From Pseudomonadota bacterium (lineage in GTDB: Bacteria > Pseudomonadota > Alphaproteobacteria > Rhodobacterales > Rhodobacteraceae), in assembly GCA_020161655.1 (NCBI GenBank), contig JAIUPC010000004.1:248001-312000 (forward strand): a stretch of 64,000 bases of DNA. Reading direction: 5' to 3'. The position numbers and the translations under genes were made by a program. Below are positions 41,653 through 44,794 of this stretch, piece by piece; position 1 is the stretch's first letter, and every line of letters starts with the position of its first letter. The notes under the pieces are model-generated. The model saw only the letters and a list, made by a program, of their open reading frames with translations, was not told the origin of the DNA and made no database searches.

Positions 41653-42477
41653 ATGGCGCAGGGTGGATTTTCGGCCGTCGTCCGCAGTGGCGCGAAAGGG
41701 ATCTCCAAGCACGCGTTCCACGCCGCCGAGGGCCGGTGCCGGTTCGAATCGACGGTCTTCATGCTCGCCCATATGCGCTGCGGATCGACCGCGCTGTCGA
41801 ACGTGATCTGCGCCCACCCGGAGATCTGCGGCTATGGCGAGGCGCAGGTGGTCTATGCCGGCGAGGCCGATATCGGGCTTCTTGCCTTCAAGTCGCTCTA
41901 CAACCGGGCCTGGAAGTCCGATTTCCGCTTCTTTTTCGACAAGGTGCTCTGGAACCATCTCGACGCGGCGGCGGGGCCGGAGTTCTTCAACGCGCGCGCG
42001 GTCTTTTCCTGCCGCAACCCGCGCGACACCATCGCCTCGATCCTGAACCTCGCCACCAAGTCCGACTACATGCGCCGCTTCGATGCGGCGAAGGCCGCGG
42101 ATTACTACGAGCGGCGGATGGAGCGGCTTCTGGAGATGTGGGACCGGTTCCCGCCCGAGCGCCGCATCGGCATCACCCACGACAGGATGATTGCCGAGAC
42201 CGGGCCGGTGCTGACCGAGATTTCCACGATGATCGGGCTGAGGGAGCCATTGGCCAACAGCTATGCGTCCTCCGCCCCGGAGGTGAAGGTCGGCGTGGGC
42301 GACCCCCTCGACGCGGTCCGCTATTCGCGGATCGTGAAGAAGGCAAGCGCTGCGGGGCGGTTCCATGAGGTGGTGGACGGGTTGCCGGGGGACCAGATGC
42401 GGCGGATGTCGGCGCTTTATGCGGAGTTCCGGGAGCGGGTGGAGGTGGCGGCGCGGGCGAGGGCGGCGGTGCATTGA
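41653..42477 (+). CDS. sulfotransferase family protein
   Basis: 274 aa. The PAPS 5'-phosphosulfate loop is MLAHMRCGSTALSNVICAHPEICGYGE near residues 36-62, and the 3'-phosphate site is AVFSCRNPRDTIASILNLATKSDYMRRF. It would transfer sulfate to an unknown acceptor, possibly a glycan. ATG 41653 has AGGGAGGCC upstream. Isolated, with minus-strand small genes on both sides. Confidence 0.8.
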   Translation: MAQGGFSAVVRSGAKGISKHAFHAAEGRCRFESTVFMLAHMRCGSTALSNVICAHPEICGYGEAQVVYAGEADIGLLAFKSLYNRAWKSDFRFFFDKVLWNHLDAAAGPEFFNARAVFSCRNPRDTIASILNLATKSDYMRRFDAAKAADYYERRMERLLEMWDRFPPERRIGITHDRMIAETGPVLTEISTMIGLREPLANSYASSAPEVKVGVGDPLDAVRYSRIVKKASAAGRFHEVVDGLPGDQMRRMSALYAEFRERVEVAARARAAVH

Positions 42478-42565: not shown

Positions 42566-42673
42566 TCAGATCGCCGCCCAGTCGTCGAAAGTCCATTCCC
42601 TCGGCGGTGCCGCGCGCCGTTCGTCGGCGGGTTTTTCCGGCACCGGGCCGGGCGGTTGCGGTTGCCATTGCAT
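42566..42673 (-). CDS. 35-aa ORF downstream of a structured RNA
   Basis: The frame begins MQWQPQPPGPVPEKPADERR and ends REWTFDDWAAI: Pro-rich start, charged middle, aromatic/acidic tail. ATG 42673 is preceded by GAAGGAG with a 7-base spacer, an excellent ribosome binding site, but that site can be hidden in a hairpin. No gene follows on this strand before the antisense sulfotransferase. It could be a small protein or a regulated leader peptide. Not recognised. Confidence 0.5.
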   Translation of the reverse strand: MQWQPQPPGPVPEKPADERRAAPPREWTFDDWAAI

Positions 42674-42693
42674 GGCGGTTCTCCTTCATTTGC

Positions 42694-42817
42694 GAAGGAC
42701 ATGGGGGTGCCGGGCGCAGGTATGCGCGCGTCCGGCGGGGATGTGACCTGTCGTAATCGTCGGCCCGGAAATCGGGGCCGGTGCGGGCCAGATGGCGGCC
42801 CGTTCGAAATGTCCTTC
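42694..42817 (-). ncRNA. candidate riboswitch-like structured leader RNA (124 nt)
   Basis: On the minus strand a 9-bp stem GAAGGACAT/ATGTCCTTC (42809-42817 with 42694-42702) closes three hairpins: CGGGCC-GCCATCT-GGCCCG, CGGCCC-CGATTTCC-GGGCCG, and GCCGG(ACGC)GCGCA-TACC-TGCGC-CCGGC. A 20-odd-nt single-stranded stretch (ACGATTACGACAGGTCAC, then ATCCCC) lies between the second and third. The 3' arm of the closing stem can instead pair as TCCTTC with GAAGGA of the downstream ribosome binding site (42682-42687). It does not match a riboswitch class that I know. Confidence 0.5.
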
Positions 42818-43034: not shown

Positions 43035-44690
43035 CTACCTCGTAAACTTCTTATACTTCACCCGCTTCGGCTCAATGCTATCCGGCCCCAACCGCCGCAC
43101 CTTGTCTTCCTCATAGGCTTCGAAGTTGCCTTCGAACCATTCGACATGCGCGTCCCCTTCGAACGAAAGGATGTGGGTACACAGCCGGTCGAGGAAGAAG
43201 CGGTCGTGGGAGATGATGACGGCGCAGCCGGCGAAGTCGTCGAGCGCCGCTTCCAGGGCCTGCAGGGTCTCCACGTCGAGGTCGTTGGTCGGTTCGTCAA
43301 GCAAAAGCACGTTGCCGCCCGACTTCAGGAGCTTCGCCATGTGGACGCGGTTGCGTTCACCGCCGGACAGGAGGCCGACCTTCTTCTGCTGGTCGCCGCC
43401 CTTGAAGTTGAAGGAGGAGCAATAGGCGCGGGAGTTGACCTGGGCGTCGCCAAGCTCGATCTGTTCGGCGCCGCCGGAGATTTCCTCCCACACGGTCTTG
43501 TTGGCGTCCAAGGCGTCGCGGGACTGGTCGACATAGGCCAGTTTCACCGTGTCGCCGTAGCTGACCACGCCGGCGTCGGGCTGTTCCTGCCCGGTCAGCA
43601 TGCGGAACAAGGTGGTCTTGCCGGCGCCGTTCGGCCCGATGACGCCGACGATGCCGCCGGGCGGCAGCGCGAAGGTCAGATCCTCGATCAGCTGCTTGTC
43701 GCCCATGTGCTTTTTCAGCCCCTCGACCTCGATCACCTTGCCGCCGAGGCGCGGGCCGTTCGGGATGATGATCTGGGCGCGGGTCAGTTTCTCGCGTTCG
43801 GACTGGCCGGCGAGGTCTTCATAGGCGTTGATACGGGCCTTCTGCTTGGCCTGACGCGCCTTGGCGCCGGCGCGGATCCATTCGAGCTCACGCTCAAGCA
43901 CCTTCTGCTTGGCCTTGTCCTCGCGCGCTTCCTGCTCCATCCGCTTGGCCTTCTGCTCGAGCCAGGCGGAATAGTTGCCCTCGTAGGGAATGCCGCGGCC
44001 GCGGTCGAGTTCGAGGATCCAGCTGGTGATGTCGTCGAGGAAATAGCGGTCGTGGGTGACGGTCAGGATGGTGCCCGCGTATTCGATCAGGTGCTTTTGC
44101 AGCCAGGCGATGGTTTCGGCATCGAGGTGGTTGGTCGGTTCGTCGAGAAGCAGCATGTCGGGCGCTTCGAGGAGAAGCTTGCAGAGCGCGACCCGGCGCT
44201 TTTCGCCGCCGGAGAGGCTGTCCACGTTGGCGTCATCGGGCGGGCAGCGGAGGGCCTCCATCGCCACGTCGATCTGTGAATCGAGGTCCCAGAGGTTTTC
44301 GGCGTCGATCTCATCCTGGAGCCGCGCCATCTCGTCGGCGGTCTCGTCGGAATAGTTCATCGCAAGCTCGTTGTAGCGGTCGAGCTTGGCCTTCTTCGCC
44401 GCGACGCCGAGCATGACGTTGCCGCGCACGTCGAGGCTCGCATCAAGCTGCGGTTCCTGCGGCAGGTAGCCGACGGTGGCGCCCTTGGCGGCCCAGGCCT
44501 CGCCGGAGAAATCCTTGTCGATGCCGGCCATGATCCGGAGGAGCGTGGATTTGCCGGCGCCGTTGACGCCGACGACACCGATCTTGACGCCGGGGAGGAA
44601 GTTGAGGCGGATGTTCTCGAAGCACTTCTTGCCGCCGGGATAGGTCTTGGAGACGCCGTCCATGTGGTAGACATACTGGTAGGAAGCCAT
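43035..44690 (-). CDS. ettA: energy-dependent translational throttle protein EttA (ABC-F)
   Basis: 551 aa soluble ABC-F ATPase that binds the ribosomal E site and gates elongation by ADP/ATP ratio. Two ABC domains: Walker A GVNGAGKST and GPNGAGKTT; signatures LSGGEKRRVALCKLLL and LSGGERNRVHMAKLL; Walker B LLLDEPTNHLDAET and LLLDEPTNDLDVET. The EttA-type arm and the linker (RMEQEAREDKAKQKVLERELEWIR) are present. ATG 44690 gives the usual MASYQYVYHM start; GTG 44699 is an alternative. Confidence 0.95.
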   Translation of the reverse strand: MASYQYVYHMDGVSKTYPGGKKCFENIRLNFLPGVKIGVVGVNGAGKSTLLRIMAGIDKDFSGEAWAAKGATVGYLPQEPQLDASLDVRGNVMLGVAAKKAKLDRYNELAMNYSDETADEMARLQDEIDAENLWDLDSQIDVAMEALRCPPDDANVDSLSGGEKRRVALCKLLLEAPDMLLLDEPTNHLDAETIAWLQKHLIEYAGTILTVTHDRYFLDDITSWILELDRGRGIPYEGNYSAWLEQKAKRMEQEAREDKAKQKVLERELEWIRAGAKARQAKQKARINAYEDLAGQSEREKLTRAQIIIPNGPRLGGKVIEVEGLKKHMGDKQLIEDLTFALPPGGIVGVIGPNGAGKTTLFRMLTGQEQPDAGVVSYGDTVKLAYVDQSRDALDANKTVWEEISGGAEQIELGDAQVNSRAYCSSFNFKGGDQQKKVGLLSGGERNRVHMAKLLKSGGNVLLLDEPTNDLDVETLQALEAALDDFAGCAVIISHDRFFLDRLCTHILSFEGDAHVEWFEGNFEAYEEDKVRRLGPDSIEPKRVKYKKFTR

Positions 44691-44794
44691 ATCGGTCACT
44701 CGCTCGGGTCAGAGGGATTTCGGGCGCTTCTACCGGCTGGCGGGGCCGGGATCAATTGCCGGGGACGCGCTGGCGCAGACGGAAGGAAAAGAAC

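Follow-up and report, generated by a model that had tools for sequence, protein, structure and literature searches.

The SAM/SAH riboswitch controls translation through a hidden ribosome binding site, and in the FourU and ROSE RNA thermometers a U/C-rich strand pairs with the Shine-Dalgarno (SD) site without any need for a long-range closing stem. The SAM/SAH riboswitch (RF01727) of Rhodobacterales is located before metK and binds its ligand in vitro (PMC2864571). Another study (PMC8632094) describes odc1 (uORF-25-1) of alphaproteobacteria, which has a predicted binding site within P1 and a conserved very short ORF, and uORFC-8-2 of Rhodobacterales, which is located before cysS and is described as a cysS attenuation element.

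Here we have analysed a leader on the minus strand of a 64,000-nucleotide stretch of Rhodobacteraceae DNA (the window), which had been predicted from the letters of the DNA to be a riboswitch-like RNA whose closing stem (P1) competes with a hairpin hiding the binding site of a 35-codon ORF. Similar to FourU and ROSE, this leader has a U/C-rich strand on the SD site, but unlike them it has a long-range closing stem as the alternative partner. With the SAM/SAH riboswitch (PMC2864571), it shares a structured leader and the same bacterial order, while its target is a tiny gene instead of metK and no Rfam family matches. Like odc1 (PMC8632094), it is a structured RNA with a P1 that would act on a binding site and with a conserved very short ORF; however, the P1 of odc1 hides the site whereas P1 here would free it, and the 11-residue ORF of odc1 is upstream of a longer gene whereas the small gene here is the only target. 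The uORFC-8-2 motif (PMC8632094) also is a leader with a short ORF, but no same-strand gene follows here as cysS does there. Overall, no family of Rfam 15 was matched in the 64 kb at the gathering cut-off, and the best sub-threshold match was nadA, with 14.5 bits against a cut-off of 37.5, which agrees with the original remark that the element matches no recognised class.

The features of the locus are listed in Table 1. The 9-bp closing stem, the second pairing of its 3' arm as TCCTTC with the GAAGGAG site, and the 35-codon ORF served by that site are all present as originally claimed. If P1 is enforced in the folding, the three inner hairpins are formed as predicted, and the linker, which was claimed to be unpaired, is so apart from a weak 4-bp helix.

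Table 1. Positions in the window of the leader, its pairing elements and the small gene.
Feature	Position	Strand	Remarks
35-codon ORF, MQWQPQPPGPVPEKPADERRAAPPREWTFDDWAAI	42673-42566	minus	small protein of the F-x-D-W-A-x-[IL]-stop kind; has homologues within the genus and elsewhere in the family
SD site GAAGGAG	42687-42681	minus	8-14 bases 5' of ATG; invariant in 9 leaders
P1 5' arm GAAGGACAT	42817-42809	minus	partner is 42702-42694; resembles an SD site itself
P1 3' arm ATGTCCTTC	42702-42694	minus	its TCCTTC (42699-42694) doubles as the anti-SD strand
Inner hairpin 1 (CGGGCCG...)	42802-42784	minus	fold with P1 enforced; form not conserved in relatives
Inner hairpin 2 (P3)	42780-42761	minus	fold with P1 enforced; other GC-rich hairpins roughly there in relatives
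Linker	42760-42737	minus	unpaired apart from a weak 4-bp helix; TCAC at 42746-42743
Inner hairpin 3 (P4, GCCGG/CCGGC)	42736-42709	minus	fold with P1 enforced
P_up block GGTTTTCCCGACCTGCG	42870-42854	minus	conserved in genus; likely part of the leader promoter
Extended -10-like box TGCTAACCT	42838-42830	minus	TGCTAnnCT in 6 of 8 aligned genus sequences

We propose that this is probably a genus-level translational RNA switch with two folds, which controls a small protein of an apparently unnamed group. The leader of ~150–170 nt would be the 5' end of a one-gene mRNA for the 35-residue protein, and translation would be controlled by the choice between two RNA folds. The RNA would be made from a conserved upstream promoter (GGTTTTCCCGACCTGCG), and the -10-like box would place its start at roughly 42824-42820, immediately upstream of the P1 5' arm. 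The 3' arm AUGUCYUUC would either pair with the 5' end of the RNA (P1), leaving the SD site free (ON), or pair with the downstream GAAGGAG, hiding the SD site (OFF), with P1 and the hairpins between its arms setting the balance. The two folds should alternate in the cell, and a ligand, temperature, a protein, an sRNA or a choice between two promoters would move the balance. A sigma-70 consensus scan found no match, so we can only infer a promoter function of GGTTTTCCCGACCTGCG. If the proposal is true, the leader is a so far unnamed regulatory RNA, clearly of two-state design and, more unusually, with a tiny protein as its only output.

Could such pairing arise by chance in GC-rich DNA? Perfect 9-bp stems with 90–140 nt between the arms number 56 per strand of the window, against 22–43 in five block shuffles, so the P1 stem alone is unremarkable. 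Among those stems, only P1 has a 3' arm that also pairs with an SD word before an ATG. The minimum free energy of the 252 nt (42566..42817) is just mildly low, at a z of -1.87 that 9 of 200 shuffles matched, and the unconstrained optimum fold contains the binding-site hairpin, without the closing stem. Neither the stem, which is common by chance, nor the modest folding energy makes the case, which therefore depends on the comparison with relatives. Both the number of such stems and the weak folding z-scores, here and in the alignment below, would fit a chance origin; however, 9 genomes have kept the leader, with compensatory changes among them, and two genomes that a covariance model newly found have an intact P1. 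At the sequence level this conservation lifts the leader above chance, which we consider a highly improbable explanation.

The upstream regions aligned within the genus share GGTTTTCCCGACCTGCG, TGCTAnnCT (6 of 8), the P1 5' arm, a AAGGGACCGAAGGGU-like stretch, a GC-rich hairpin, TCAC, P4 with UGAAAC in its loop, and then CCCCCATGTCYTTC before the SD site. The block GGTTTTCCCGACCTGCG shows at most three differences in each of the 8 aligned sequences, that of genome G167 included, and is also present in G157 and G161. The AAGGGACCGAAGGGU-like stretch is absent from the window's genome, and most relatives carry it where the window has inner hairpin 1; the UGAAAC of the P4 loop is degenerate in the window. 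We have built a covariance model from 7 leaders (those of G157, G161 and G167 not among them), which matches in 10 of the 22 genus genomes at E ≤ 7.4e-8, the next best hit having an E-value of 0.0175. All 10 matches are directly before the small gene, although in G161 the contig ends inside this gene and the rest is on another contig. The leaders of G157 and G161 were newly found by the model, while G167 was already known from its ORF. The other 12 genomes, some of which are incomplete, gave no strong leader match, and at E below 0.01 no leader copy was found before any other gene in the 22 genomes. P1 is lost in G167, which keeps the upstream block GGTTTTCCCGACCTGCG. Among the nine leaders keeping P1, the window's own has the lowest score (91.6 bits vs 111.5–182.2). 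G157 (L101, about 1468-1508) carries a tandem duplication of the P1 5' arm region, with GACGCTATTCCTGAAAGACA present twice.

Across the nine leaders, 79 of 81 P1 pair cells are standard, the exceptions being one A-C cell (G154) and one C-C cell (G010), and P1 is kept in 9 of the 10 matched leaders. Two double changes are found, each in a single genome: an A-U pair has become C-G in G010, and one has become G-C in the window. A third pair alternates between A-U and G-U. This result was reached by 19 of 500 shuffles; six slid versions of P1 are 33–58 percent paired, one of them with one double change. The anti-SD helix (GAAGGA with 42699-42694) is standard in 53 of 54 cells over the same leaders, with zero covariation, and its slid versions still pair at 46–87 percent, so the conserved purine-rich SD site could explain much of this pairing. 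The two exclusive helices, one of which hides the SD site, are both conserved in the nine leaders as the original prediction of mutually exclusive pairing expected, and covariation is seen for P1 only.

For P4, one pair is A-U in 5 leaders and G-C in 3, and 83.7 percent of the cells in this helix are standard, a count in which the window's own P4 is partly unaligned. P1, a short P1 extension and P4 together have 3 double-changed pairs, which was equalled in 106 of 500 shuffles, and a covariation score that just 2 of 500 shuffles attained. When RNAalifold was run unprompted on a MAFFT alignment, the structure it chose contained P1, P4 and one other helix, at an energy z of -1.8 (8 of 200 column shuffles as good). 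Inner hairpin 1 in the window's form is absent from the other eight aligned leaders; at the position of P3 the relatives have other GC-rich hairpins, where the alignment is too poor to count covariation. Between the P1 arms the one covarying pair is in P4, and at the level of these alignments covariation is small overall. The original prediction had offered covariation in all four stems as a check: covariation is seen in P1 and at a single pair of P4, and hairpin 1 is unconserved. Two candidates read from the sequence were rejected, namely a UUUCA/UGAAA pseudoknot with P4, which was seen by eye and is not kept in several members, and an upstream mini-ORF starting at AUGUC, whose frame and stop differ between relatives.

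The predicted energies of the two folds have also been compared. The P1 state minus the OFF state is near balance in the window (+0.6 kcal/mol), G150 (-1.7), G149 (-0.5) and G152 (-0.1), and amounts to +2.9 in G168 and +3.6 in G161, whose stretch is cut by the contig end, so that the two states lie within 4 kcal/mol of each other in 6 of the 9 leaders. Far from balance are G157 (-5.5), where P1 is favoured, and G154 (+7.1) and G010 (+8.6), where OFF is favoured by 7–9 kcal/mol. For the window, the folding gives an SD accessibility of 0.71 if P1 is formed and of 0.14 if the OFF hairpin is; in G149, G152, G168 and G157 the SD site is only about half accessible (~0.5) in the P1 state.

Profile searches found homologues of the 35-codon ORF in other species of the genus and beyond it. 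A single-sequence search gave mainly chance hits, yet it gave the true homologues of G010 and G130, and the profiles found the rest. The genus homologues are 31–38 residues long, with many prolines and basic residues, and their C-terminus reads W/Y-x-F-x-D-W-A-A/M-I-stop. As a DNA pattern, the tail F-x-D-W-A-x-I/L-stop matches in 84 of 295 family genomes and, both groups of small proteins counted together, in 14 of the 22 genus genomes, while a control pattern one base out of register matches in 24 of 394 genomes. The pattern demands a TAA or TGA stop and so misses members such as that of G154, and some of its matches are not small ORFs; the collected loci yielded 67 distinct ORFs that are shorter than 90 residues, have a start codon and carry the tail. 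Judged by these homologues, the 35-codon ORF is a conserved gene, and it looks like a member of a group of low-complexity proteins, all of them short, which are widespread in the bacterial family and have an exact C-terminal motif in common.

For the few members tested, neither Pfam at E up to 0.1 nor NCBIfam at E up to 1 gave a family, and among the papers listed by the literature searches we recognised no description of the leader or of the tail motif. The group is apparently unnamed so far, judging from the literature, Rfam, Pfam and NCBIfam searches. A search of plasmid DNA gave no match, and a genus search at the DNA level gave, besides the window, only short matches of at most 67 bases, among which is the end of the homologue in G010. 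The exact shared motif makes the switch and the protein's partner directly testable. The window's genome has a second group member (L173, G000:C8:12726-12749), which is glutamine-rich, ends with QFRDWASI and has ndk nearby; of five other loci like it, two have ndk nearby and three have TfoX_C. In G168 (L051/L259), two different F-x-D-W-A-x-I genes are located ~1 kb apart on opposite strands, and in G263, G144 and G125 tail matches lie within 1.3 kb of each other.

Outside the genus, 21 genomes of a 394-genome family sample gave covariance-model hits at E up to 0.1. Three of these hits (G076, 6.3e-7; G289, 1.7e-5; G239, 0.004) are just before small genes of the same group, and an exact tail-pattern scan of the collected loci found no group member beside the other 18. 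The P1 5' arm was seen in none of 11 checked loci of other genera. The succession TCAC-15/16-TGAAACA-22 to 26-CCCATGTC recurs at a near-fixed distance before the ATG, with a block score of at least 16 in 14 of the 67 loci (6 in the genus, 8 outside) against 0 of 201 shuffles, a comparison that is partly circular since the consensus was derived from the same loci. The 16-base spacing of TCAC and TGAAACA is promoter-like; more RNA-like are the nearly unvarying distance to the ATG and the strong hairpins of 3 of 11 non-genus loci. Concerning the predicted conserved linker, TCAC is kept, the TCAC/TGAAACA stretch recurs in other genera, and this part of the linker may be a promoter and not an aptamer.

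These observations bring in an alternative that is mostly about DNA, in which TCAC-16-TGAAACA followed by CCCATGTC would be an internal promoter and start region, transcripts would lack the P1 5' arm, and RNA structure would be minor or act via promoter choice. We regard it as somewhat unlikely. The recurrence and scores of the blocks in the 8 loci outside the genus suit it, and taken one by one, just 3 of 11 non-genus loci and 0 of 6 genus loci have a significant P4-like helix; combined over the 11 non-genus loci, however, the P4-like helices are significant (Fisher p 0.002). Promoters also seldom keep so constant a spacing to the ATG, the copy in the window has a score of 13, which 13 of 201 shuffles reach, and the P1 covariation would be left unexplained. 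An exact scan for TCAC...TGAAACA...CCCATG in 280 genomes gave 19 matches (backward control 0 throughout) and no clear regulon: 3 are before a small gene, all previously known, and 12 of the remaining 16 sit inside open frames of more than 200 codons. At L231 and L234, from two genera, a TCAC-TGTAACA-CCCATG match precedes a gene that is TusA-like by eye, possibly as a promoter pattern or by chance.

A hairpin that hides the SD site or start codon, as in RNA thermometers, is found here in predicted folds and pairing counts. It is quite unlikely, in our estimation, that the locus is just a thermometer or plain sequestering hairpin, opened by temperature, the ribosome or an sRNA, with P1 only tuning it. 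The SD site and sometimes the AUG are paired in the local folds of homologues, including those of genera without P1. In 18 of the 67 loci (the 17 best block scores and the window), the start regions fold better than shuffles (Stouffer z -4.2, over related sequences that are not independent), and in some the start codon is hidden too (G112: CCAUGUC/GACAUGG). Yet the individual z-scores are uneven, with six below -2 and 10 above -0.9, four of the latter being positive, and a thermometer leaves unexplained the compensatory changes of P1, with its arms more than 100 nt apart. In two genera other than the window's, the small gene comes after a cold-shock gene, which would suit a thermometer: in G289 (L125) this is a cold-shock-domain gene by Pfam, and in G270 (L075) one read by eye.

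A ligand-binding translational riboswitch of a new class, in which the junction between P1 and the inner hairpins would bind a metabolite, stabilise P1 and turn the gene ON, is a special case of the two-fold switch, and we consider this special case unlikely. The layout, the unpaired stretches conserved in the genus (AAGGGACCGAAGGGU-like, UCACGACC, UGAAAC) and the lack of an Rfam match are what a new class would show. On the other hand, the single target is a tiny gene without a known metabolic link, in the 22 genus genomes no other gene is preceded by a copy (E below 0.01), promoter DNA may account for the UCAC and UGAAACA stretches, covariation is weak, two of the three inner hairpins are poorly conserved, and the window's leader scores lowest of the nine. 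The riboswitch-like layout that was predicted stands in part: the exclusive pairings are kept, P1 has two compensatory double changes and the ORF is conserved, but hairpin 1 is unconserved, P1 is lost in G167, the binding-site helix lacks covariation, the P1 5' arm is unseen in the 11 loci of other genera and part of the linker may be a promoter. The term 'riboswitch' goes beyond the evidence, which at sequence level consists of the sequences themselves, two conserved pairings, compensatory changes in P1 and a conserved gene; from it, the best reading of the element is a real two-state leader that acts as a translational switch and is conserved, as is the small gene behind it. The alternatives overlap with this reading, as a riboswitch, a thermometer or a second promoter could be how the switch works. 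A combined scheme appears decidedly doubtful to us: an orphan riboswitch class of one Rhodobacteraceae genus, in which a metabolite would turn on the 35-residue protein, the F-x-D-W-A-x-I/L tail would dock a partner, part of the leader would be an internal promoter, and promoter choice would set switchable versus OFF transcripts.

The leader stretch begins 217 bases past the stop of an ABC-F gene (43035-44699, minus strand), which has two ABC_tran stretches and an ABC_tran_Xtn linker in Pfam and which we infer to be EttA-like. The next gene past the small ORF is a convergent sulfotransferase-like gene at 41653-42477 (+), so the tiny ORF is indeed the only downstream gene, and with no same-strand gene between the two the arrangement of a leader-peptide attenuator is not found. 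The next gene is also convergent in G149, G150 and G168. The Pfam neighbours of the small gene differ among genomes: ABC-F in the window, amidohydrolase and GFA in G010, a ferric-reductase-like protein in G150, thioesterase in G168 and Usp in G157. The small gene of G112, which belongs to a different genus, likewise comes after an ABC-F gene with an end similar to that in the window, and a search within that genus (one genome, G112) found nothing beyond G112 itself; the ABC-F and small-gene neighbourhood is thus common to the two genera, and otherwise the neighbours vary. Within the small ORF and antisense to it, a terminator-like hairpin with a T run is located at 42615-42630 (+) of the window.
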